From contig CAIXIX010000070.1 in NCBI GenBank assembly GCA_903919615.1, forward strand, positions 1 through 56,071: a stretch of DNA of 56,071 bases, read 5' to 3'. Shown piece after piece: positions 11,897 through 24,257 of the stretch (the first letter of the stretch is position 1; every line of letters starts with the position of its first letter). Below the pieces are notes generated by a model. The model ran no database searches, was not told the origin of the DNA, and saw nothing but the letters and a program-made list of their open reading frames with translations. Made by a program: the position numbers and the translations under genes. This DNA comes from an uncultured Chthonomonas sp. (lineage in GTDB: Bacteria > Armatimonadota > Chthonomonadetes > Chthonomonadales > Chthonomonadaceae).

Positions 11897-12691
11897 CTAA
11901 CCCAGATTCCACGTTTCGCAACCGCGAAAGGGCATATGGACTCCTTCGAGGTAGCGAGGTCTTGGGTTGTAACTATTCACTCCAGGAGTCTCAACACCAC
12001 GAAGCATAAATGCGCTCGGCCAGGGGCCATCGTTGCGCACAAGTATCTTTGTTGTTGCCGGAATGTATCGGATCGTGAGGCCGCAGCGTCGCCTGGCCGA
12101 GTGGTTTGCTTCGGAGCCATGAATTACATTTGGATGGTGAACTGAGACTCCACCACGCTCCAATACACAGTCAATCGCGCGCGACTCATCCACAAATGCA
12201 GAATCCATGCTGGAGCTTAGAACGTTCGGTTTGCTCTTATCCGGTTTCATCTCCTGGAGAGCCATGTTCTGGGTGCCGGGTATCAGGCGCATACATCCGT
12301 TTTCAGGCAATGAGTCGTCGACTGCCAGCCACAGCGTGATCACTTCCATCGGCTGCAGGGGCCAGTAGCTTCCATCCTGGTGCCAGAGCACTGGCTGCCC
12401 ATCATGCGGTGGTTTGCAGATATAGTGAGACGCAAACAGTGCGATGTCTGGTCCAATAAACTGCTGGGCGATATCTAGCAGCCTATTATCGCTCACGAGC
12501 CGAACCCAGAATGGATCCTCAGTCATGAGCGTATGACCCAGGTGCTCTGGTCGCAGACCGGGGTTTCGCGCAAGGAGCCATGCAACGTGGCTGCTAGCCT
12601 CATCCATGAGCTCCACATCCAATGCATTGGGAAACAGAACATAACCGTCCCGGTTATACTGCTCCACCGCGCCTGTTTTGATGTCTGCCAT
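11897..12691 (-). CDS. Phytanoyl-CoA dioxygenase (PhyH) family oxygenase
   Basis: 264 residues from the ATG at 12691. That start has AGGAGT seven bases upstream, whereas an ATG six codons earlier lacks one. It is an Fe(II)/2-oxoglutarate-dependent oxygenase: the metal triad is H104-x-D106 in LWHQDGSYW and H191 in NVIHGSEANHS, followed by RRRCGLTIRYIP for 2-oxoglutarate. Conserved WLAVDDSLPENGCM sits between. Bacterial PhyH proteins hydroxylate diverse small molecules or amino acids, so the substrate is open. It is the last gene of a seven-gene minus-strand run, 48 bases after the FemAB-like gene. A second PhyH gene lies at 29661-30521; the two share the HQD-SYW and WLAVDD blocks and are paralogues. 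Confidence 0.9.
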   Translation of the reverse strand: MADIKTGAVEQYNRDGYVLFPNALDVELMDEASSHVAWLLARNPGLRPEHLGHTLMTEDPFWVRLVSDNRLLDIAQQFIGPDIALFASHYICKPPHDGQPVLWHQDGSYWPLQPMEVITLWLAVDDSLPENGCMRLIPGTQNMALQEMKPDKSKPNVLSSSMDSAFVDESRAIDCVLERGGVSVHHPNVIHGSEANHSARRRCGLTIRYIPATTKILVRNDGPWPSAFMLRGVETPGVNSYNPRPRYLEGVHMPFRGCETWNLG

Positions 12692-12739
12692 TATTTCGAC
12701 TCCTGCCATTGAGCCTGGTACCGCGATTGACTCACTGGG

Positions 12740-13816
12740 CTATCCGGATATTTCTGCGCTGCCAAGTTTCTCAACAATCCGATCGGCCAGCCTGTCGTAG
12801 AAGATGAGGTCGTAAGCGCCGAGCGAATCGAAACGCGCTCCTCCCAGTTGCTTTTTGAACCGGCTAAAACCTGCATAGGGATGATCTGATGTTCCAAATG
12901 GATCGAAGCCGTACAGATCGTACTCGGTATAGCCATCGGCTTGCATCTCTTGAATGATCCTCCAATGCAGGAGGTAGACAGGCATAACGCGGCGATGCTC
13001 GACGGAAGAGCCGCCATAAAGGAATGTGGCGCGCTTCCCAAATCGGATTACGAGGGCTGAAGCAAGCGTCTCACCCTGAAACTCGGAGAAGAAAATCTGA
13101 GCCCCGCCGGATGGGAAATGAGCGGCGCAAAGATTAAGGAAGAAGCTGTAGGGTTCGGCGAAGAAGCCGTTTCGGCCCGCAGTATCCGTAAATAATTGGT
13201 GAAACAGCTTGACGTCCTGCATCGCAGTCGATCGCCGCACCTGCACTCCATGGCGTATCGCCACACCGATATTGTATCGGCCCTTCGGATGCATCTGTCG
13301 CTTCAACTCGTCTTCATTTTGATTGATGTCAATAACAAGCGAATGCGCCGGGTTTAGATCCACCGGCGCACGGCTCCAGTTACGCATCACGGAAGGTCGA
13401 GGCGGCGATATTCTAGGCTCGATACGCAGTCCAAGCCCACCCTGGCGGTCGGCAAGCGCCGTCGCTTCACCAATGATCATTTTGAGCGCCTTACGGGAGT
13501 GCTCCGTACTTTCCCATGGCACAATCGGCCCATCGGCGCAGATAAGCATGCCTTCGGAAACCGACGACGGATAAGAGAGCAGCGCGGCGCCGCCACCAAG
13601 CTTGCCCATGTTGAACAGCCCGAATTGATTAACCTCGTAGCCTTCAGAGCGCTTAAAGCGAAGCCATGCGGTGCTCTGCATGAATCCGGAATAGGGGCTT
13701 GCTGAGACCATATGATCCCATTCAAGATCGAGTTCCGAACCCACGGTTGAGATCGTCGGATCAAACCGCTCTTCTGACAGCCCCGACGGTTCAACCAGCT
13801 CCGCTCTTTTTTTCAT
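12740..13816 (-). CDS. FemAB-like (peptidoglycan bridge / lipid II aminoacyltransferase) family protein
   Basis: 358 residues with the double-GNAT FemAB layout. Features seen are SGFMQSTAWLRFKRSEGY near the N-terminus, a GPIVPW strand, the linker-like MHPKGRYNIGVAIRHGVQVRRS, and a C-terminal GNAT half ending YDLYGFDPFGTSDHPYAGFSRFKKQLGG, the family's hallmark. Fem proteins transfer amino acids from aminoacyl-tRNA to the peptidoglycan stem peptide. Relatives attach amino acids to other surface peptides or small molecules. Its ATG overlaps the stop of the SpeE-fusion gene by one base (TGATG), so the two are tightly coupled. Whether tRNA is the donor cannot be told here. Confidence 0.8.
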   Translation of the reverse strand: MKKRAELVEPSGLSEERFDPTISTVGSELDLEWDHMVSASPYSGFMQSTAWLRFKRSEGYEVNQFGLFNMGKLGGGAALLSYPSSVSEGMLICADGPIVPWESTEHSRKALKMIIGEATALADRQGGLGLRIEPRISPPRPSVMRNWSRAPVDLNPAHSLVIDINQNEDELKRQMHPKGRYNIGVAIRHGVQVRRSTAMQDVKLFHQLFTDTAGRNGFFAEPYSFFLNLCAAHFPSGGAQIFFSEFQGETLASALVIRFGKRATFLYGGSSVEHRRVMPVYLLHWRIIQEMQADGYTEYDLYGFDPFGTSDHPYAGFSRFKKQLGGARFDSLGAYDLIFYDRLADRIVEKLGSAEISG

Positions 13817-16302
13817 CAGCCCGCTATTCGGGATAGCGCGGCATCGATCCGGTTAAGATGGAGGTTCAGCCGATCGATGTCCTTCATCGTCGCATTCGTA
13901 TCCGCTTCGTTCTGCCTGATGTCTCGATTAGTTCTGCGAAGCGCTTCGATCACCGAGATCTCTTCTGTGCCGTAATCGACCTGATAGTAGGGATCGCCAT
14001 AGTTCATGGACTGAAGGTTGCTGTAGTCGTTAAGATCGCGATAAAGGGATCTTGAATCATTGGCGAGCAACTGCAGATCGTTTTGATCGGAAGCGATTCC
14101 GCCTGAGGTGTCTTTCCGCATCTGAAGCAGTGCGGATCGAACCACCTTCTGAAGCTGCGGCGGAGCCTGGCGCACTCCGTTTATTGAGCCACCGCTTATC
14201 TGTCCAGCATCAAACGTCATCCATGCTCCAGACGCATCGCGCATCTGTATCGCGCCCGACGCCGTTAGTCTTGCATCGATGAAAAGCTCGAGGTCATCGG
14301 GATGCAGATCGGTTGGGATCACTCCGGCCGGCGGATTGCCGAGCCTCTGCATCGCGACATCCAATTTCGATGAGAGATCCTGAAGATTTCGCAACTCCTG
14401 CATGTCTCCGGCGACAGCGGGCATAAACCAGGATGTCCATCCCACCCACGACAACCACTCTCTGCGCGCAACGATCGCATTTTGAACACTGTCCTGCTGG
14501 CGCGCAATCTGATCTCTCACATTCGCGAACAGTGAGGGATCCGGATAGAGCGAAATGACCGGATTGGGCGAATCCTGGCTCATTAGAGCCACAGTTCCAT
14601 TCGTAAGCAACAAGAAGGCGTTATCCGAAACATTAATGACTACATCGCCATTATCAAGAACGGACATGTCTTCGCTAGCCAGAAACAGAGCTTCATGCTT
14701 CTCTGGCGGAGCCATGTTTGGATTTCCGCCACCGACGGATGTATAGGGATGAACGTGACCGTAACCGCTCCCACAGTAGGAGTAGACCCGCGCTGGTTCG
14801 TACGTGCCGTAAATATCTACGGCATGGCCTCTGCCGTATGCCGTTCGGAATCCCGAGCTTGTAAAGGTGGGCGACGAAGGACCTGAAAGTACGCTATGAC
14901 TTGCGGAAAAGCCGCCATTGGCGCGTCCTGTTGCCGTTCCGCGAGCACCTCCAAAGCTGCTGGAACTCTGTCTTCCACCAGCGGAAAAGCCGCGAGCCCC
15001 GCTAAAACTGCCCGATTCTGGCGCTCCGAATCCGGCGCGGGCGCCGAAACTGCTATGGCTTACCGATACGCCTCCGTGCGATCCACCGCCAAAGGATCCC
15101 TTAGCAAACGCATTGTCTGGTGCAATCGCATTTGCGAGGGTCATCATAATGACCAGAGTCGCAAACAGTTTATAGCTCCATGCGCTAAAGAGCTCGAAAC
15201 GAAATGCGTGGTCTCTCAAAAAACTGCGCAGCCGGTTGAGCTCTGTAATGACTGATTCGGGCAGCTCTTTTGCCCGCTTCAAAACAGCGTCAAGCAGCCT
15301 TCGAATGTCAAGCTCACGTACGGTGCCAACAATCTGATCAGCCAGAGTCTCGATCATCACACGCGTATGGTATGGATGCGAGATCGGTATGGAGTTCAAC
15401 AACGGATTGAGATCGTACGGCGATGCTTCCTGCGGCTCATCCGATGTTTGTGTGGCAAGTGTTGGGTTTAGCAGCAGCGGCAGCAGAGCAGCATTCCCGC
15501 AGTTATTGATCGGCACATGTCGCATCAACCCTCGCTCTGAAGCAGAGAATCTGGCAGCGCGAGCTAATGATTTAAGATCGACCAGGCAAGATTCAATGGG
15601 AATGCTAAGCGCCTTTAGGTCTGATGCGCGAAAGTTTTCCTGACTGCAAAGCATGAACGCCCAGACACCATAGCCATGATCCCGAAAACTTGGGATGCAG
15701 ACGCGATATGGCATCGGATTGAAACCCGCTGATTTTACCGTTTTGGCAAGGCACCAAAAGGCCAGCGGCGTCGTTTGAGGTGATACGCCATTAATCGCGA
15801 GGACAGCGCGCGCCCCCAGGCTGAGCTTCAGCAAGCCGTACCACTCCGCGCTGAATACTCGGGTATCTTCTGGGCGGCGTGGAACGGTGAAATCACAAAT
15901 CACTACGTCGTAACCATGGGCGGCCTGCAAGAAATCCCAGGCGTCCTCAATAAAAACGCGCACGCGCGCATCCGAAAAGGCTCCACAGTTAACTTGATCA
16001 AAGAGAGTTCGGCCCAGCTCAACAACGTCTTCACTGTAGTCGACAAGATCTACAGAACTAACGCCTGGGAAGCGAAGGCATTCACGCAGCGCCAGGCCGT
16101 CTCCTCCACCACAAATCAGTACTTTCAGGTCATTGGCTGTTCTGGATCGAGCAAGTGCAAGCGCAGGCAACGCCAGGTATTGATGATAGATAGCCTCATC
16201 GGCAGTGTCAAATTGAAAATCGCCATCAATGTAAAGGGCGAAACCCGGTTCTGTTGCACCGTCCAGGCGCTCGCGCTGGTCGACGAAAATGTTAGGATTC
16301 AT
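13816..16302 (-). CDS. Spermidine-synthase-like enzyme fused to a transmembrane Gly/Ser-rich surface region
   Basis: 828 residues in one open frame. Residues 20-220 are a spermidine synthase (SpeE)-type methyltransferase fold: LYIDGDFQF (23-31), DEAIYHQYL, the nucleotide motif GGGDG (65-69), LVDYSEDVV, and VVICDFTVPRR with D137 in the place of the catalytic aspartate. The second aspartate of the usual D-x-x-D/DLPDP motif is replaced by V140. Residues 376-396 form one hydrophobic segment ending NAFAKG, which reads like a signal peptide with an AFA-K cleavage site. Residues 401-490 are Gly/Ser-rich low complexity, and about 580-828 are helical with a coiled-coil-like end. SpeE moves an aminopropyl group from decarboxylated S-adenosylmethionine. 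Here the enzyme would face the cytoplasm and the tail the outside. It overlaps the next gene upstream by ATGA. Confidence 0.8.
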   Translation of the reverse strand: MNPNIFVDQRERLDGATEPGFALYIDGDFQFDTADEAIYHQYLALPALALARSRTANDLKVLICGGGDGLALRECLRFPGVSSVDLVDYSEDVVELGRTLFDQVNCGAFSDARVRVFIEDAWDFLQAAHGYDVVICDFTVPRRPEDTRVFSAEWYGLLKLSLGARAVLAINGVSPQTTPLAFWCLAKTVKSAGFNPMPYRVCIPSFRDHGYGVWAFMLCSQENFRASDLKALSIPIESCLVDLKSLARAARFSASERGLMRHVPINNCGNAALLPLLLNPTLATQTSDEPQEASPYDLNPLLNSIPISHPYHTRVMIETLADQIVGTVRELDIRRLLDAVLKRAKELPESVITELNRLRSFLRDHAFRFELFSAWSYKLFATLVIMMTLANAIAPDNAFAKGSFGGGSHGGVSVSHSSFGARAGFGAPESGSFSGARGFSAGGRQSSSSFGGARGTATGRANGGFSASHSVLSGPSSPTFTSSGFRTAYGRGHAVDIYGTYEPARVYSYCGSGYGHVHPYTSVGGGNPNMAPPEKHEALFLASEDMSVLDNGDVVINVSDNAFLLLTNGTVALMSQDSPNPVISLYPDPSLFANVRDQIARQQDSVQNAIVARREWLSWVGWTSWFMPAVAGDMQELRNLQDLSSKLDVAMQRLGNPPAGVIPTDLHPDDLELFIDARLTASGAIQMRDASGAWMTFDAGQISGGSINGVRQAPPQLQKVVRSALLQMRKDTSGGIASDQNDLQLLANDSRSLYRDLNDYSNLQSMNYGDPYYQVDYGTEEISVIEALRRTNRDIRQNEADTNATMKDIDRLNLHLNRIDAALSRIAG

Positions 16303-16880
16303 CGTGCGGCACCTCGAGGCAGAAGGTGGGAGGCAACAACACTGATGCCGCCGGATATAACCCCAGCGCCAATCGAAAACAGCACGATCGTGGTTGCGGC
16401 GGCAAAGAATTCGTCGCCAACCTGCGTGTAATCCTTATGAAGGTGGTCGAAAAGCACGATCAGGTTCGCCGCTGAATATAACATCATGGCAAAGACAGAT
16501 GCCCTGAAGCCATCAACAAAAGCAAACTTGACAGATCGTTCGCCTGCATGTCGCCAACCAACGAATATCCCGGCGACAGCCGGCACCACACCAAGAATCA
16601 GCATTAGCCAGATCCCTGGCTTCCATCCCTCAGGCTGGCGTGTAGAAACGATCAAGTAGCCGATCAGCGCGATGACAAATCCGATTCGTACACTAACCGC
16701 CACGGTACCTTCACGGGCCAGTCGTGCAAAGCGAAGTTGCCGGCCGAGATCGGATATCCGCATCGGGTCGCCGCCATCGTGCGCCGCTCGGTTTAGCGCT
16801 TCGTCGGCTTCATCGAACCGTCCTTTTTTTATTGCATCAACGGCTGCTTGAAGGTCTTTTTGTGCTGCTGATCCATCCAT
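16299..16880 (-). CDS. Membrane protein of unknown family
   Basis: 193 residues. A short helical, TPR-like N-terminus (AVDAIKKGRFDEADEALNRAA) precedes about five hydrophobic segments: VRIGFVIALIGYLIV, IWLMLILGVVPAVAGIFVGW, a polar loop with GERSVKFAFVDGFRAS, FAMMLYSAANLIVLF and TIVLFSIGAGVISGGISVVAS. The ATG at 16880 follows AGGAG at a rather long 12 bases, and the 3' end overlaps the SpeE-fusion gene by ATGA. DUF350 membrane proteins occur beside SpeE-like/DUF2617 genes in other bacteria. This one has no clear DUF350 signature, so I leave the family open. Confidence 0.65.
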   Translation of the reverse strand: MDGSAAQKDLQAAVDAIKKGRFDEADEALNRAAHDGGDPMRISDLGRQLRFARLAREGTVAVSVRIGFVIALIGYLIVSTRQPEGWKPGIWLMLILGVVPAVAGIFVGWRHAGERSVKFAFVDGFRASVFAMMLYSAANLIVLFDHLHKDYTQVGDEFFAAATTIVLFSIGAGVISGGISVVASHLLPRGAAR

Positions 16881-16915
16881 ATGCGCAGTTTGCTCCTGAA
16901 GCCTTTACCACGAGA

Positions 16916-17452
16916 CTACGAGATAGCAATGATTCTGGTTCTGCTTCGCACCCAAACATTTTCGCCGGGGTACGTATGTTGTGTTTCGAGGGTTGCCCCG
17001 CCATCGAATGCGCTCCACCTCATTCGCGTCCAGGCTGGAGAATCGCTGTCCCCGTCCGGATAAGCCTGTTCGATGGTGCCATCTGGTTTGCCCCAGTTTG
17101 CGAAGGTGCTAAGATCGCTTAGCGGCAGTATATCTATGCGAGCATGAATTCGAATCCCATCGGCATCGAGGTCAAGTATGTAACCACTTATTGAGGCAGA
17201 TTCTGCCACTAGCTCGGTGGACAGGCGATCGCTTCCACAGCTCAGCACTTCAGTAATCGCGCCTGTGGCGCTGCGCACACACATTGCGTGGCTAGCGCCT
17301 AGCGCGTAGAAAGTGATGGTTAGTTCTGGCCCGATATACGTCTCTTTACTGAGAATTCGTAAAGACTCCACCGGCGCCTCACCCTTGTAAACTCTATAGA
17401 CCAGTTCTCTCGACGAATACGGTAACTTTGGCTCCAACCGGTAGTTCTCCAT
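16916..17452 (-). CDS. DUF2617-like protein
   Basis: 178 residues. The LGASHAM core (51-57) and the C-terminal block W-x-x-FDGG...HTYPGE-x-x-VRSRTR (about 145-172) match the pattern I know for DUF2617: a central G-x-SH, then an FPGD-like turn and a final W-x-x-HxYP-x-T-G-x-x-V-x-TRT. Here the turn reads YPDGDSDSPA. DUF2617 genes are known neighbours of spermidine-synthase-like genes, which fits this location three genes upstream of the SpeE fusion. No biochemical role is established for the family. The ATG follows the HEAT-repeat gene's stop directly (TGAATG), so the genes are translationally coupled. Confidence 0.6.
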   Translation of the reverse strand: MENYRLEPKLPYSSRELVYRVYKGEAPVESLRILSKETYIGPELTITFYALGASHAMCVRSATGAITEVLSCGSDRLSTELVAESASISGYILDLDADGIRIHARIDILPLSDLSTFANWGKPDGTIEQAYPDGDSDSPAWTRMRWSAFDGGATLETQHTYPGENVWVRSRTRIIAIS

Positions 17453-18211
17453 TCAATGTTCCGATATCATAGCAACTGCGGTATTTGCCGCTTCGGCAAC
17501 CGAAGGGTTGTCGTCAGTACACAATCCCAGGATGCGCGGCAAGGCATCCACAGCCTCGCTTCCGCCTATTTTACCTATGGCGAGCGCTGAATGGCCGCGA
17601 ACATCATCGTCGACATCATCTAGCGCCAGGCACAAACTGGAGATAGCATCTCTGCTGCCAATTTCGCCAAGCGCCCAGGCTGCGTACCAACGTACTTTCT
17701 CGTCGGGGTCTTTAAGGGCATTTATCAATGCTGGCGCTGCGTCGAAAGCAAGGGGGCCCATTCGCGCCAGAGCGCCAGCTGCGCTCCACCGGTATTCGCT
17801 ATTCTGTTGCTCCAGTTCGCGCATGAGAGCCGGTATGGCATCGGCTGCATCGGGACCTAGCCCGGCGATCGCGGAAGATGCCATACCGGGAAATACTCCC
17901 GTGCGATCTTCGAGCGCAGAGATGAATTGTGGTAGATGTGGCTCCAAAGTGCCAGTAATCTTGACGATGGCGTATCGTGCCCAAAGGCGCGATGTGGCAT
18001 CCGTATGCTGTAGGACCGCAGCTAATGCCGGAAGCGCCGACTTTGCTTCAGTCTGAAGCCGGGCCAGATCCCGCGCGGCATTCCAGACCACTGAAACATG
18101 GGGATCGCTCAAGGCTCGAGCCAACAGCTTAATGCGTTCAGAAGTGGCTTGTAATATTGGACTCGATGTAGGATCCACCGGGCTAAAACAGGCCGATGAT
18201 GCGGCCATCAT
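17453..18211 (-). CDS. HEAT-repeat protein
   Basis: About 252 residues made almost entirely of HEAT/PBS-lyase-type repeats of 30-32 residues. Each helix pair is recognisable, for instance [35 protein letters not shown], and [19 protein letters not shown]. These are protein-interaction scaffolds with no catalytic residues. The start is uncertain: a TTG at 18223, ATGs at 18211 and 18208 and a GTG at 18178 are all in frame, and none has a good Shine-Dalgarno site. The first three overlap the 3' end of fhs, which suggests translational coupling. It is probably a scaffold for the downstream DUF2617 / SpeE / FemAB proteins, an inference from position only. Confidence 0.8.
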
Positions 18212-19859
18212 CGTCGACGTCAATACTTTCAGCAGATGGCACCGGCGACAGTCCAGGCATTGTCATTATGTCTCCCGCAAGAGCCACAATGAATCCTGCA
18301 CCAGCGCTAGGCGTTAGAGATTTGATCGTTATCTTGAAACCTGTGGGCGCGCCACCAGCCTTAGGGTCATCGCTAAACGAATACTGCGTCTTCGCGATAC
18401 AAACTCGCAATCCGCCCAATCCATTCGTTTCAAGCCATTTCCGCTGTGCGTCTGCCTCCGCAGTAAGTACGACGCCGTCCGCGCCATATACCTTGGTGGC
18501 AACTGCATTCAGCTTATCTAGAATCGGCTGAGTTGCATCGTATGCAGGGGCAAATTCGTTAGGTTTATCAAGAGCATCCAGAACTGCCTCGGCAAGTTTA
18601 ACGCCACCAGCCCCACCTTCGCCCCACACGCTGCAAAATGCGATGCTCCAGCCGCGAGATGCCGCATGTTCGAGCACCGCAGCGGTCTCAGCCTCTGTAT
18701 CGCTGCTGAAATGGTTGACGGCAACAACGAAAGGAGCTCCCATCTGTTCAACATTGGCTGCATGGCGATCGAGATTTGAAAGTCCCCGCTTTACAGCGTC
18801 TACGTTTTCCGCATCAAGCCGTTTCTTGTTTACCCCGCCGTGCATCTTAAGCGCACGAATGGTCGCAACCAAAACTACCGCATCGGGCGGAAGGCCCGCA
18901 GACGGGGCGACGATATCGCAGTACTTCTCGAATCCTAGATCGGAGCCGAAACCAGCCTCTGTCACCACGATATCACCCATGGCCTGCGCCAACTTGGTCG
19001 CGAGTGCGCTGCTGCAGCCATGCGCGATGTTGCCAAACGGTCCGCCATGCACAAGAGCCGGCGTGTTCTCCAATGTCTGGACGATATTGGGCTTCAACGC
19101 ATCAAGCAAAATCGCAGTCATTGCGCCATTTGCCTTGAGCTGGGCGGCGGTAACGGGAGCGCCATCTAGATCGCGCCCAACAATGATGCGCCCGAGGCGG
19201 TCTCGCAACTCTGCGATACTGTTGCTCAAACACAGGATGGCCATTACCTCGGAAGCAACCGTGATCGAATACCCGGATTCGCGAGGCACACCTCCGGTCT
19301 TACCGCCAAGACCGATAACGATCTGACGCAAAGCACGATCGTTCATATCGACGACACGCTTGAAACCGATTGTTCTTGAATCGATTCTAAGGCTGTTTCC
19401 CTGATGTAAGTGGTTATCCAGCATCGCTGCCAGCAGATTGTGTGCAGCGCTTATCGCATGCATATCCCCCGTAAAATGGAGGTTTATATCTTCCATCGGC
19501 AGCACCTGGGCATATCCGCCGCCTGCAGCCCCACCCTTGACACCGAAGACTGGCCCCATTGAAGGCTCTCGAGTCGCGGATATAGCGCGCTTACCCAGCT
19601 TGCACAATGCCTGCGCGAGGCCAATCGTGGTTGTCGTTTTCCCCTCGCCTGCAGGCGTTGGCGTAATTGCCGTGACCAGGACAATCTTGCCCTTTGGCCC
19701 TGACGTGCTGGAAAGAAGTCGACTTATTGCAGGGAATGAGATCTTTGCCTTATATCGGCCATAAAGCTCAATATCTTCTGGCCCGAGCCCTAAACTCTCC
19801 GCGATGTCCACAACAGGCAACAAAGTTGCGGACTGAGCTATTGCGAGATCTGTATTCAT
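18183..19859 (-). CDS. fhs: Formate-tetrahydrofolate ligase
   Basis: 558 residues, the usual length for Fhs. It makes 10-formyltetrahydrofolate from formate, tetrahydrofolate and ATP, feeding purine synthesis and one-carbon metabolism in the cytoplasm. The nucleotide-binding motif [12 protein letters not shown] is at 67-78. Other conserved blocks include [31 protein letters not shown] (about 109-139), [14 protein letters not shown] and [14 protein letters not shown]. The start ATG at 19859 has GGAG some 11 bases upstream. It is the first gene of the minus-strand run. Its 3' end overlaps the HEAT-repeat gene, so a metabolic enzyme leads a cluster of apparently envelope-related genes. Confidence 0.97.
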
Positions 19860-20085: not shown

Positions 20086-20682
20086 TCATAGTGAACGTAT
20101 TGCTGCTGCGGCAAACTGTGCAGTACGATCGAAATCGGAGTCGCCACGAATGATTAGGTCCGCGTACTCGCGAGACGGCTCAACGAACTGGTTATGACCG
20201 ACACGAGCACATTCACGATAGTATGTTGAGATCCACTCTGGATCCGTGCTGCCTCGGCCGCCTTTTGTATCCCTAAGCAGCCGGCGCAGTGCCCGAATAT
20301 CTGCATCGAGTTCAATGAAGATCTTAAGATCAAGTATCTCACGTAACTCCGGTATCTGCAGAGTCATGAGACCTTCAACAATCACGACATCCGGCGCATC
20401 TTCTGCGGAAACGAGAATCTTCAGGTCTGCAATTAGCCGGTCATTATCGGCTGAATTGGGATGGTTATTGTTTGGCAGGATCTCTCCTGAGGAGGGAGAG
20501 ACAAACAGTGGGCCACCTGGCGCTCCGCGGTAAAAATATCGATCCATACCTATGATTTCAACTGTTAACGCCGGATACTCCCGATCGAAATGGCTCTTTA
20601 GAGCCGCAGTAAACGTAGTTTTGCCGGAAGCAGAGCCTCCGGCAATTCCAACGAGAGTACATTTTGCACGCTTACACGGCAT
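20086..20682 (-). CDS. udk: Uridine kinase-like P-loop kinase
   Basis: About 198 residues. The P-loop is GGSASGKTTF near the N-terminus, followed by the PRK/uridine kinase pattern of GMDRYFYRG, NHPNSADNDRLIADL, VVIVEGLMTLQ and the arginine-rich lid RALRRLLRDTKGGRG. Uridine kinase phosphorylates uridine or cytidine for pyrimidine salvage; distantly related members act on other small molecules. I chose the ATG at 20682, with AGGTG six bases upstream. A GTG at 20691 would overlap the upstream stop. It forms an operon with the secreted protein and the zinc-ribbon protein upstream, an unexpected pairing for nucleoside salvage. Confidence 0.8.
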   Translation of the reverse strand: MPCKRAKCTLVGIAGGSASGKTTFTAALKSHFDREYPALTVEIIGMDRYFYRGAPGGPLFVSPSSGEILPNNNHPNSADNDRLIADLKILVSAEDAPDVVIVEGLMTLQIPELREILDLKIFIELDADIRALRRLLRDTKGGRGSTDPEWISTYYRECARVGHNQFVEPSREYADLIIRGDSDFDRTAQFAAAAIRSL

Positions 20683-20687
20683 CGGAC

Positions 20688-21830
20688 TCACCTATCCTGC
20701 TGATAAAAATAGAGATGCCCCTCCGTGTCCTTGTTTTCCGATGTTAGAACGAGGATACCGACTTTGCCATCATTTTTCGGTTCACCTATTCGCACATCGA
20801 GGAGGTGGCCAGGCAGAGAATCACTCCGCCAATCCTCTTCGAAATCATCCATTGTTAGCTGCCAGAATGACTTGCCTCTGCTGGCAAATTTCGGAACATA
20901 AACCACAAGCCTGTCACCGGTTGAAGCAGCTGGGTTCTGATCTGTAGGCGCTGCGCTTCCGCGGGCCACGCCGATCATCCACTTGTACTTACCGTCCCAA
21001 ATCGATTGTACATACCTTATGCCTGGCGCAAGGGTCATTTTTTCAGCGCCAGGAAATATCTGAAGCCCAGCACCGTGCCGCGCATATCCACCTCCTGTGG
21101 TCGGCGCGCCTTCGGCGCTCGGCTGTGCCCGGTTTAAGCCAATCTCGTAAGATGTTGCAGAGTCACCGGTACCGCATATTACGCGATCGTCGAGTTCTTG
21201 CTCCCCAAGTACGAGACCCATACGCGGATCTAAGGGCGTTGGGTAGAGCTTTGCAAGGGCTCCCTTTTGCCACACGTAGACGCCGTCGGTTGATACGACT
21301 TGAATTGGCGGGAGCGTCTGTCCGTTAAATACGTTCGGGGTAACAGGTCGCGGGGCAGCAGTTCCATTTACTGGCGGGCGGCCAACTGTCGACGGTCTAT
21401 CAAAGGGAGAGTGATCCTGCGGCGATACATGCGACGAACGAAATTTGCCTGCCATCAAGAAATCGATCGACTGGCCTCGGACATCAAGTCGCCCGTCCGA
21501 AGAAAACCTGAGGCCATCCCAATGCAATACGAGCAGAGCACGGCCTCCTTCGTTCGCATTATCCGATGGCTGAAGAACGATAAGGTTATTGCGCTTCGTA
21601 TCCGTAACCGGACCGACGTCGATTAATCGAGCCGGCCGTTCAAGTTGATAATCCCAGATTTTGCTAAAGCTGATGGTAATGAGATTGCGGCCGGCTGTGG
21701 ATGTCTGTTGCCTGGCTCTCACCTGACTCAAGGCATCTATCCGCGGAACGAACACGCAACTAAATATAGCAATGACCACGAAGGCCTTAGTGGGCCCTCT
21801 ACTCGTCCGCTTTGTGAAAGACATTTGCAA
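20688..21830 (-). CDS. Secreted or anchored protein of unknown function
   Basis: About 380 residues with a basic N-terminus and a hydrophobic segment AFVVIAIFSCVFV (about 16-28), consistent with a signal peptide or anchor. The body is beta-rich with a Pro/Gly linker near 150-185 and repeated motifs of the type ALLVLHWDGLRF, DGVYVWQKGALAKLYP, GKVGILVLTSENK. These suggest a beta-propeller or FG-GAP-like fold, but no family is recognised. Start at the TTG (21830) or ATG (21824) with AGGGTGG upstream. It overlaps the zinc-ribbon gene by 26-32 bases and the kinase gene lies at its 3' end, so the three are translated together. Confidence 0.6.
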   Translation of the reverse strand: MQMSFTKRTSRGPTKAFVVIAIFSCVFVPRIDALSQVRARQQTSTAGRNLITISFSKIWDYQLERPARLIDVGPVTDTKRNNLIVLQPSDNANEGGRALLVLHWDGLRFSSDGRLDVRGQSIDFLMAGKFRSSHVSPQDHSPFDRPSTVGRPPVNGTAAPRPVTPNVFNGQTLPPIQVVSTDGVYVWQKGALAKLYPTPLDPRMGLVLGEQELDDRVICGTGDSATSYEIGLNRAQPSAEGAPTTGGGYARHGAGLQIFPGAEKMTLAPGIRYVQSIWDGKYKWMIGVARGSAAPTDQNPAASTGDRLVVYVPKFASRGKSFWQLTMDDFEEDWRSDSLPGHLLDVRIGEPKNDGKVGILVLTSENKDTEGHLYFYQQDR

Positions 21831-23742
21831 TATACCACCCTGCCATCGCCAGAAGTGAAGTCCAGCTTGTGAAAATGTTCGCGGGAAGAGAGATAGAATC
21901 TTCCGGGTTGGTCGCTGGGGGGGGCGTTATCCAGGGTGGATTCAGAATCATCATCGAGAATCCATGTCCGGCGCTCAGCTCCATTACGCCTCGAGAGAAA
22001 AGAGCCACTCCGAGAAGAGCCAGAACTGAGACATTAGCTTCCTGTCGCAATAGACAGATTACGGTATAGATTACCAGACCAACGGCTGGGCCAAACACGA
22101 GTGAAAGGATCAGCAGCCAAACGGCATCATCTGCGTCCTCATCCTGCCACGGGATAAGGTGGAAAACCGGCAAAAACATTCCGCCAAAGAAGGTTGCGAA
22201 GCACAACGGCGCCACGTACGCGGTTGGGAAGAAGCCCGCTGTGAGACCGCAGACGAGAAGTACTCCGGCATACGAAAGCAGATACTTAAGCAGCAGAGGC
22301 CCAAGATCCTCTGTTGGCTCATCCCAGTGGAAGATAATTGGCGGAGCAGTAGAACCCGGAATCGGGGGCGCAGAGGTTACTTCTCCGGCAGGATTATAGT
22401 GAAAACCTGAGATCGAGTCAACCATCGTATCCGAATAGTACTTTGAATGCACCAATCCAAGGCTGGCAGTCATCGCAGCCTGAGCATGCATCTGCTGAAT
22501 ACTTGGGATCGAAGGCTTGTTTGATGCCGCTACGCCGCTCGCTAGTCCGCCTACCTCTTCGACCTCCGCTTCGGCGTGCGGCTGATCCGCTTGCTGATAC
22601 GGCTGTGTGGGAGCGGCCAAAGGCTGTTGTGTAGGCGCAGAGCGTCGACCGCCCACCCCTCTCGACATCTGTTGCGTGGGCTGAATCGGCGCAGGCGGCG
22701 TCGGGTGTTCGTGCTGTTCCTGCGGCGCATTACGGCTGGCAGCTTGTTGCCGTGCAGAGACCGCCGGCGGCGCAGCGGCAGGCGGGGGCGGAGCCTGAGC
22801 TCTCTGTTGGGCACCAGGCAGTGGCTGCTGCCTCGAGTTCGGAGGCGACTGCTGCGGATATGCAGGCTGAACTGGCGGCGGAGGCGCCGGGCGCGAATCC
22901 AAAGGTGCGGAACGCTGTGGAATTGGCTGTCCCAGTGGCGATCGCGGCGCGGGGCCTCGCGGCGCGGGAGGCGCGGGAACGCGCGCTCCAGGCTCCATGG
23001 TCGGCTGGTGCGCAAGCGGCGGCAAATCTGAGTCAACTTCACCAAGAGGCTGCGGGGCCGTGCGTGGAACCGGCGCTGCAGGGCCTGGCGCATGCCTTAC
23101 GATTGGAGCAGGCGGCGTCTTTGCAACGGGCGGCGTTGGAGTTACAGGCTGGGCAGGTTGGTGCGCATCTACCGGCGCCTGCTGCTGTGCAGGTGATGAA
23201 ATTGGGGCCGGCCCACGTCGAATTACCGGCGGGGGCGAAGCCGCAGGAGGTGGCGCAGATGGCGCTGCCGTCTGGGAACCCGGAGGCGGCTGAACAGGAG
23301 CAGTTCTGTAAGTAGGCGGCGGCGGGGGCGCGGCAGCACGAGGTCCAGACGCAGGAGGAGGCGTCGGCTGCGCTGAAGGCGGCACGGGCCGACCTCGAAC
23401 ACCGATGATTGGCCGCGCTACTCCAGGTGCAGAAGCTGCTGGCGGAATAGAGTTTGGCGGCTCCGGAGCCACGCGCACAGGAGCGGGTGTCGGATCGGGT
23501 GGCGCCGTCTGCCAGGGAGCCGCAATCTCAGGCTCGTCCTCTTCAGGTTCTGGCCCCGTGAGCGGAACATGCGGCGCCGACCTGACGATAGGGCGTGGCG
23601 CCGCACCCCTGTTCGACGGCGGTGGCGGTGGAGCAGTCGTGGACCGGGTTCCAGCTTCGCCCGTTGCGGCAGTGAGAGGATGGCGACACCAACTGCACAC
23701 GTTGGGTGTCGTGCTCTCCATGCCACAATGCTTACAAAACAT
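21799..23742 (-). CDS. Zinc-ribbon, proline-rich membrane protein
   Basis: 647 residues from the ATG at 23742, which has GGAGGAT seven bases upstream; the frame is open further upstream but lacks such a site. A CxxC...CxxC zinc ribbon (CKHCGM ... CSWCRH) occupies residues about 3-20. Residues about 30-390 are low-complexity Pro/Ala/Gln/Arg, probably disordered. The C-terminal about 170 residues hold four to five hydrophobic segments (YLLSYAGVLLVCGLTAGFF, ATFFGGMFLPVFHLI, WLLILSLVFGPAVGLVIYTVI, VLALLGVALF, and a final one). Zinc-ribbon plus proline-rich plus membrane architecture is common among uncharacterised proteins of Planctomycetota and Armatimonadota. Function is unknown. It has a consensus promoter and a roughly 150-base leader. 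Confidence 0.7.
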   Translation of the reverse strand: MFCKHCGMESTTPNVCSWCRHPLTAATGEAGTRSTTAPPPPPSNRGAAPRPIVRSAPHVPLTGPEPEEDEPEIAAPWQTAPPDPTPAPVRVAPEPPNSIPPAASAPGVARPIIGVRGRPVPPSAQPTPPPASGPRAAAPPPPPTYRTAPVQPPPGSQTAAPSAPPPAASPPPVIRRGPAPISSPAQQQAPVDAHQPAQPVTPTPPVAKTPPAPIVRHAPGPAAPVPRTAPQPLGEVDSDLPPLAHQPTMEPGARVPAPPAPRGPAPRSPLGQPIPQRSAPLDSRPAPPPPVQPAYPQQSPPNSRQQPLPGAQQRAQAPPPPAAAPPAVSARQQAASRNAPQEQHEHPTPPAPIQPTQQMSRGVGGRRSAPTQQPLAAPTQPYQQADQPHAEAEVEEVGGLASGVAASNKPSIPSIQQMHAQAAMTASLGLVHSKYYSDTMVDSISGFHYNPAGEVTSAPPIPGSTAPPIIFHWDEPTEDLGPLLLKYLLSYAGVLLVCGLTAGFFPTAYVAPLCFATFFGGMFLPVFHLIPWQDEDADDAVWLLILSLVFGPAVGLVIYTVICLLRQEANVSVLALLGVALFSRGVMELSAGHGFSMMILNPPWITPPPATNPEDSISLPANIFTSWTSLLAMAGWYIANVFHKADE

Positions 23743-24257
23743 CGGAACGATCCTCCGTCCTGTTGCGACCGCGGCCTCTCCAGACAAGAGAGAAATGATT
23801 GCATTGGTTGTTCCCACACTCAAGGGAACGTCCGGAACAGACCGCAAAATTGGAAGGGCGCAGTTCGGCTATCGAACAGGACATAGTACTCAGAACCCTA
23901 TTATAAGATGATGTGAAACGGTTGTCAACGCACACGCGGGACTGTATCGGTCAAAACCTGCCGACAGCCGCATGGGAATTGCGAAAAAATGCCAGATGGC
24001 CGTAACGGCATCCAATATAGCTACTAGAATACCGTATCTCGTCCGATTTCCACAGCACGTGCTCATCAGTGACACTTCTCTGCTATCTGGACGCCTCACA
24101 ATGCCTTTTCGGTTCCATATGGCACTGTCTTATCGGCACCGACCTTATACGATCACAACGCGGCAGGCGCTGCACACGGCGCCATTGCGGAACGAAACAT
24201 GAAGAAGGGCCGTTTAATAATATTCCAGCTTGACTATGCCTGTGCCATAATCGCAGC
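23743..24257. other. Divergent intergenic region with a structured leader
   Basis: About 515 bases with no credible gene. The left part is the leader of the zinc-ribbon gene and carries two short perfect stems: GTTCCC/GGGAAC (23810-23829) and GTTCG/CGAAC (23863-23877). The sigma-70 promoter sits at 23900-23928. The remaining roughly 330 bases ahead of the AddB-like gene show no clear promoter or hairpin. Confidence 0.55.
23900..23928 (-). promoter_or_regulatory. Consensus sigma-70 promoter of the zinc-ribbon operon
   Basis: On the minus strand TTGACA (23923-23928) and TATAAT (23900-23905) are separated by exactly 17 bases, a perfect match to the bacterial consensus. Transcription would begin near 23893, giving a leader of about 150 bases before the ATG at 23742. 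The promoter probably drives all three genes down to 20086. Confidence 0.75.

Follow-up and report, generated by a model that had tools for sequence, protein, structure and literature searches.

A candidate membrane-associated modification module in Chthonomonadales combining DUF2617, a SpeE fusion and a FemAB ligase

Gene content of the seven-gene run

We analyzed a stretch of 56,071 nt from an uncultured Chthonomonas sp. (contig CAIXIX010000070.1; hereafter the window, over whose whole length all coordinates are counted), in which a gene run at 11897-19859 brings together a DUF2617 protein, a SpeE-like (spermidine synthase-like) protein fused to a membrane segment, and a FemAB-type ligase. 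An initial annotation had described seven co-directional genes with overlaps or short gaps, and its coordinates, junctions, and family assignments all hold: the seven open reading frames are tightly packed and lie in the same direction on the minus strand. As it had also stated, the HEAT gene stops one base before the DUF2617 gene starts (17453/17452), the genes for a small membrane protein (MEM) and SpeE share an ATGA overlap (16299-16302), and one base (13816) is common to the SpeE and FemAB genes; the remaining gaps are 35 and 30 bases. Promoter and terminator signals across the run showed no excess above chance and do not mark a single transcript.

Pfam matches were obtained for PhyH (4e-31), FemAB (1e-31), Spermine_synth (2e-27), HEAT_2 (2e-26), FTHFS (6e-250), and DUF2617 (7e-9, above the curated cut-off), and neither MEM nor the C-terminal tail of the SpeE fusion matched a known family. 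The FemAB protein matches PF02388, has FemX and 6snr as solved relatives, and carries a conserved Phe-Lys pair that is present in at least 95% of SpeE-linked FemAB proteins. PhyH possesses the iron triad HxD...H; its orthologues conserve both H-Q-D and the distal His of IHGS/VHGS. The features are as follows, with the central genes first.

16916..17452, minus strand: DUF2617 protein, predicted AdoMet-decarboxylase-like (PF10936; structure matches; complementarity with SpeD)
17291..17293, minus strand: Ser54 of DUF2617, candidate pyruvoyl-forming Ser; Ser-His invariant in all aligned DUF2617 proteins
17237..17239, minus strand: Cys72 of DUF2617, candidate catalytic Cys; invariant except in genome G247
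16976..16978, minus strand: His159 of DUF2617 (HTYP motif), candidate catalytic His; invariant and profile-aligned to the SpeD catalytic His
16299..16880, minus strand: MEM, small membrane protein of no known family, conserved before SpeE in Armatimonadota
13816..16302, minus strand: fusion of SpeE-like domain, membrane segment, and Gly/Ser-rich tail (PF01564; alignment)
15628..16248, minus strand: aminopropyltransferase-like domain with altered acceptor site (V140, N171, GYG insertion)
15097..15132, minus strand: signature N-x3-P-D-x2-[FY]-[AG]-K-G at the end of the membrane segment, in 60/64 fusions
13819..15096, minus strand: Gly/Ser-rich region and conserved C-terminal domain of the SpeE fusion
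12740..13816, minus strand: FemAB-type aminoacyl ligase, partner of the SpeE fusion (PF02388; linked in 55/56 loci)
11897..12709, minus strand: PhyH oxygenase, accessory in the host's family (PF05721; near DUF2617 in genomes G005, G013, and G014)
17453..18223, minus strand: HEAT-repeat protein, probable bystander, adjoining the module only in the host's genus
18183..19859, minus strand: Fhs (formate-tetrahydrofolate ligase; PF01268), probable bystander, adjoining the module only in the host's genus

A conserved SpeE fusion-FemAB pair with an altered acceptor site

We scanned one genome per species, 84,980 species in all, with an alignment of the SpeE domain, linker, and membrane segment. The same fusion architecture was found in further Armatimonadota, in Cyanobacteria and their non-photosynthetic relatives (Obscuribacterales/Melainabacteria/Sericytochromatia), in Herpetosiphon and a relative (Chloroflexota), and in one Geomonas, and the scan also returned the more distant seven-transmembrane (7TM) SpeE proteins of Holophagaceae. 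The nearest named relatives of the window genome, a Chthonomonadaceae-type armatimonad, were metagenome-assembled genomes of Chthonomonadaceae and Chthonomonas. FemAB is the next gene on the same strand in 55 of the 56 fusion loci with downstream room, at a median gap of 5 bases, and is absent from all 16 control loci with 7TM-SpeE of the Holophagaceae type. Clustering of the neighboring genes also placed DUF4178 upstream in 32 loci and DUF350 downstream in 25; SpeD stood nearby in 23 loci by clustering and in 25 with a profile. A mirror-tree comparison of SpeE and FemAB (r = 0.95) was not used, since vertical descent alone can give such a correlation. Together, these findings indicate that the true unit is smaller and older than the seven-gene run, with the SpeE fusion and FemAB as its core pair, and that the two almost certainly form one functional unit.

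In spermidine synthases, the second Asp of DxxDP and a conserved Gln bind the polyamine acceptor. The SpeE domain in the window retains the GGGDG nucleotide motif and the first catalytic Asp, and it carries V140 and N171 at these two acceptor positions. In each of the 64 fusions the second Asp is gone, Asn stands in place of the Gln, and a GYG insertion is present; none of the 16 controls shows these changes. The nucleotide-binding side of the fusions is intact. The 7TM-SpeE proteins of Holophagaceae and of two armatimonad genomes (G013 and G247) retain the canonical acceptor residues. Since the acceptor site is altered in common, the fusions are very probably not spermidine synthases, and their acceptor is probably not putrescine.

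The membrane segment lies C-terminal to the SpeE domain, and the N-terminal 7TM region of the known operon type is not present. In 60 of the 64 fusions the segment is closed by N-x3-P-D-x2-[FY]-[AG]-K-G, after which a Gly/Ser-rich region begins. As read by eye rather than with a topology program, cyanobacterial fusions have a short Gly/Ser loop and then a second hydrophobic stretch, and the other fusions, likewise read by eye, have a long Gly/Ser tail with a conserved C-terminal domain. We find no support for the earlier proposal that a product is displayed at the surface through this tail: it lies within the SpeE polypeptide itself, after the conserved membrane segment, and in cyanobacteria it takes the form of the short loop with the second hydrophobic stretch behind it. 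Separately, the [FY]-[AG]-K-G after the membrane segment (15097-15132 in the window, and in relatives) resembles a signal-peptidase I site, and the tail might be cut off and released.

Operons of a SpeE-7TM fusion, DUF350, and DUF4178 (or DUF4247-DUF2617) have been reported with the phage-shock-protein system (PMC11237479), and the Holophagaceae loci L085-L099 and the armatimonad locus L102 show this form. The module described here is a FemAB-bearing branch of these SpeE/DUF350/DUF4178/SpeD envelope operons. Both have a membrane-tied SpeE-like domain and the recurring partners DUF2617, DUF4178, DUF350, and AdoMet decarboxylase (AdoMet, S-adenosylmethionine); unlike the reported operons, however, the fusions have a C-terminal membrane part with a Gly/Ser-rich region, an altered acceptor site, and FemAB as the next gene. 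FemAB is not mentioned in the text of PMC11237479, and we found no paper in the openly licensed literature that joins FemAB with a spermidine synthase or with DUF350.

Within a sample of 17 genomes from the host's family, of which G000 is the window's genome, DUF2617 and SpeE-like genes occur in an identical set of seven, one copy each, and FemAB occurs in six of these seven and in none of the remaining ten. The order DUF2617-MEM-SpeE fusion is kept in five family genomes (G000, G005, G014, G002, and G001). FemAB follows in all of these but the last, G001, whose contig stops inside the fusion. This family-level order, together with the SpeE-FemAB linkage across phyla, exceeds chance. The expectation that the same gene set would recur in other genomes is thus borne out by the five linked family genomes and, for SpeE-FemAB, by the 55 of 56 loci, but not by G008, where all module genes are present but spread over three contigs, nor by G013, which lacks FemAB and carries DUF2617-PhyH on one contig (L012) and DUF4178, DUF350, and a classical 7TM-SpeE on another (L016).

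The initial annotation had treated all seven genes as one system. DUF2617 and FemAB do belong with SpeE, as their co-occurrence attests, but the other genes fare differently. Relatives outside the host's genus lack HEAT and Fhs at this place, and we dropped both from the unit because they adjoin the module only in two species of that genus and look like bystanders. PhyH orthologues, about 71-74% identical, lie near the module in G005, where one gene separates them from it, and touch DUF2617 in G014 and G013. Since this contact persists in G013 without FemAB, PhyH seems to be a family-level accessory gene whose partner is DUF2617. DUF350 is absent from the window genome, yet it stands beside FemAB in G001 and G002. 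A second FemAB gene of the window genome lies directly beside an alanine racemase gene (L019, G000:C556, 1637-3964) and probably encodes a cell-wall cross-bridge enzyme, suggesting that cross-bridges in the wall are handled away from the module.

DUF2617 as a candidate replacement for SpeD

As initially noted, no SpeD is visible: PF02675 was not found in the window genome nor in any of the 17 family genomes, and the control genomes were positive. SpeD occurs in 28 of the 38 genomes that carry the SpeE-FemAB pair, none of which has DUF2617, and DUF2617 occurs in six of the 38 (Chthonomonadales, L020-L025), all without SpeD. Among 291 Armatimonadota genomes, DUF2617 is present in 9 and SpeD in 125, with an overlap of 0, although these counts are not phylogenetically independent and about four separate lineages carry the pattern. 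All nine DUF2617 genomes possess a SpeE-like gene, and in G247, which belongs to another armatimonad family, DUF4178, DUF2617, DUF350, and 7TM-SpeE stand side by side. Of 14 control genomes, only two had DUF2617, C. glutamicum and H. volcanii, and each of them has a SpeE-like gene and no SpeD. Plasmid searches for further DUF2617 gave nothing usable, and a genome search with PF01536 was uninformative, as no control genome gave a match.

In the armatimonad locus L026, the order is SpeD-MEM-SpeE-FemAB, with SpeD occupying the DUF2617 position. Together with the mutual exclusion of the two genes, this suggests that DUF2617 is a replacement for SpeD and not a helper, and DUF2617 itself is the probable reason why SpeD is missing. 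The fusion is the sole SpeE-like protein in nine cyanobacterial genomes, eight of which have a single SpeD; the most likely role of that SpeD is to supply the fusion. The module-linked SpeD proteins keep Ser, His(+5), and Cys(+20); the catalytic residues of T. maritima SpeD are S63, H68, and C83 (PMC10407285).

The hypothesis that DUF2617 is an AdoMet decarboxylase (AdoMetDC) was recorded before folding, on the grounds that its conserved GASH...C and HTYPE motifs recall SpeD and that their arrangement would fit a class 2 (duplicated) enzyme. AlphaFold2 models were then built for the window protein (predicted local distance difference test, pLDDT, 84; predicted template modeling score, pTM, 0.81) and its G005 orthologue (pLDDT 85). 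With VIA-align, the top match of the window model was human AdoMetDC (Z 8.9, 137 residues, 3.3 A), followed by T. maritima and A. aeolicus SpeD (N-terminal half) and human spermine synthase; the first unrelated match came at Z 5.2, and the rows above it belong to the AdoMetDC family. The G005 model likewise gave human AdoMetDC first, at Z 9.1 (135 residues, 3.0 A) and 8.9, then T. brucei AdoMetDC/prozyme entries, with the first unrelated match at Z 5.0. The match to the eukaryotic class 2 enzyme spans the whole of DUF2617 as a two-half beta-sandwich core, and the match to the bacterial class 1b SpeD covers its N-terminal half. The candidate Ser, Cys, and His of DUF2617 appear to be arranged as a duplicated enzyme would need, and the Ser54-His pair and His159 are invariant in the alignment. 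Our first reading, that an all-beta fold excludes AdoMetDC, was overturned by this structural comparison. DUF2617 is nevertheless about half the size of class 2 enzymes, and the residue before Ser54 is Ala or Thr rather than the Glu of AdoMetDC.

Several observations weigh against an AdoMetDC-like role. Both models consist nearly entirely of strands, with no more than one short helix, and the flanking helices of the AdoMetDC alpha-beta-beta-alpha sandwich are missing. The two models were built on one shared five-sequence alignment, and the aligner itself cautions that Z values of 7-8 are common even for models that have no clear match. AdoMetDC was not among the best 50 Foldseek matches for either model; the thioesterases and fatty-acid-binding proteins that were returned had TM-scores of about 0.2 and were discarded as meaningless. 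DUF2617 gave no profile match to PF02675 or PF01536 at E-values up to 10, DUF2617 profile searches of PDB sequences and Pfam found nothing, and an hhalign comparison of the two halves found no internal repeat. The hhalign matches to SpeD were short: that of the N-terminal half placed Ser54 on the pyruvoyl Ser without reaching significance, and a weak one of the C-terminal half placed His159 on the catalytic His. Cys72, otherwise invariant, is missing in G247. The DUF2617 lineages covered are few (Chthonomonadales, G247, and two controls), and four Pseudanabaena genomes with the pair (L031, L044, L049, and L053) have neither SpeD nor DUF2617. SpeD homologues can also be ornithine or arginine decarboxylases (PMC10407285), and the linked ones could be such enzymes. 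Finally, a sentence in PMC11237479 is readable as saying that some DUF2617 operons also have an AdoMet decarboxylase.

On balance, the models suggest that DUF2617 is probably related to AdoMet decarboxylase, and we lean slightly toward it acting as one. We describe it as a predicted AdoMetDC-like enzyme and do not file it as a member of the class 2 family, because the flanking helices are missing, Foldseek gave no AdoMetDC, the models share an alignment, and there is no sequence-family link.

The N-terminal domain of human spermine synthase is AdoMetDC-like. DUF2617 could, on the model of that domain or of the trypanosome prozyme, share the AdoMetDC fold and serve as a non-catalytic partner or allosteric subunit of SpeE, with the donor coming from elsewhere or being AdoMet itself. 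The presence of human spermine synthase and T. brucei AdoMetDC/prozyme among the structural matches fits this explanation, as do the lack of SpeD homologues in the window genome, the Ala or Thr before the candidate Ser, and the non-universal Cys72. On the other hand, the exclusion between DUF2617 and SpeD and the SpeD in the DUF2617 place of L026 suggest replacement, and Ser-His and His159 are invariant. We regard a non-catalytic DUF2617 as credible but unlikely.

A proposed pathway and its relation to known systems

Starting from the observed gene content, order, conservation, co-occurrence, and changed SpeE acceptor site, and from the predicted structural likeness of DUF2617, we propose that the core of DUF2617, MEM, SpeE fusion, and FemAB represents the version, found in Chthonomonadales, of a membrane-associated modification module that is widespread. 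DUF2617 would decarboxylate AdoMet, as SpeD does in other phyla, probably using a pyruvoyl group generated at Ser54 and an active site that includes Cys72 and His159. Anchored to the inner side of the membrane by its C-terminal membrane segment, the SpeE-like domain would then aminopropylate an acceptor other than putrescine. FemAB would take an amino acid from aminoacyl-tRNA and attach it either to the primary amine thus created or to the same target in the envelope. In the host's family, PhyH may hydroxylate the substrate or product. We give this three-step account as a whole a probability of roughly 0.5. Its second and third steps echo the original suggestion that SpeE moves an aminopropyl group and FemAB ligates an amino acid, which is still the most economical reading and is supported by the linked SpeD in other phyla. 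That FemAB acts on the aminopropylated product falls a little short of even odds.

The SpeE-like domain of Chthonomonadales could instead be a methyltransferase or aminocarboxypropyl transferase that uses AdoMet directly, with DUF2617 in an unrelated hydrolytic or binding role. The family has no SpeD, the acceptor site is altered, Pseudanabaena manages without SpeD and DUF2617, and putrescine N-methyltransferases arose from spermidine synthases (PMC3725402). However, the same altered site occurs in many SpeD-linked genomes, so that loss of SpeD brought no visible change at the donor site, and the structural match of DUF2617 to AdoMetDC would be left aside; we consider direct use of AdoMet rather improbable. 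The cluster might also make a free polyamine in the cytosol, ordinary or unusual (spermidine, thermospermine, or an aminoacyl-polyamine), which FemAB would then acylate directly. FemAB family enzymes work on lipid-linked wall precursors, which speaks against this explanation, as do the loss of acceptor residues in all fusions, the fused membrane segment, and the membrane partners. The SpeE fold and catalytic Asp are kept, and GlnA3-type polyamine glutamylation, an amide formation on polyamines, is reported in Actinobacteria (PMC11841054), but we find a free polyamine product improbable to a greater degree. It is very unlikely that the seven genes are mere neighbors with SpeE-FemAB as the only real pair and separate roles for DUF2617, MEM, and PhyH, since the three contigs of G008, the intervening gene before PhyH in G005, and the distance of DUF2617-PhyH from SpeE in G013 are outweighed by perfect DUF2617/SpeE co-occurrence in the family and an independent linkage of DUF2617 to 7TM-SpeE in G247.

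The proposed pathway resembles in part a system reportedly described by Li et al. 2019, an AdoMet decarboxylase with a fusion of a major facilitator superfamily (MFS) domain and spermidine synthase (MFS-SpdSyn) that is said to have a polyamine-independent role. There, too, a decarboxylase and a SpeE-like membrane fusion are thought to aminopropylate a target other than putrescine, although the donor there reportedly comes from SpeD and not DUF2617. To our knowledge, no FemAB partner has been reported for it. The module FemAB resembles the aminoacyl-tRNA-dependent ligases FemX and FemA in its family and solved relatives, but, unlike them, it is tied to an aminopropyltransferase, and it is distinct from the FemAB beside alanine racemase. 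Some SpeD/DUF350 operons carry an ATP-grasp peptide ligase (PMC11237479), and by analogy this parallel suggests a recurring logic in operons of this type, aminopropylation followed by amide formation.

It is puzzling that SpeE-like genes occur where no SpeD makes the donor, and DUF2617, a family of unknown function in Actinobacteria, haloarchaea, and Armatimonadota, would gain an activity if our reading is true; a prokaryotic relative of class 2 AdoMet decarboxylase would then bear on the origin of the eukaryotic enzyme. The pair of FemAB and transmembrane SpeE, present across phyla, is a concrete candidate for an aminopropylation that does not serve polyamines and whose second step forms an amide. 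More tentatively still, DUF2617 could be an additional, so far overlooked kind of AdoMet decarboxylase, a minimal class 2 relative that replaces SpeD in bacteria and archaea with a SpeD-less SpeE, and the pair a multi-phylum envelope system of aminopropylation and then aminoacylation.

Upstream of Fhs, the window carries a uridine-kinase-like gene and a gene for an uncharacterized protein (20086-21830). In two species of another genus (L017, L018), such genes sit downstream of FemAB-DUF350, and they may belong to the wider neighborhood. At 21799-23847 on the minus strand lies a gene for a protein of 682 amino acids. It has a zinc-ribbon-like CxxC motif close to the N terminus, a very long stretch rich in proline, and hydrophobic segments at the C-terminal end.

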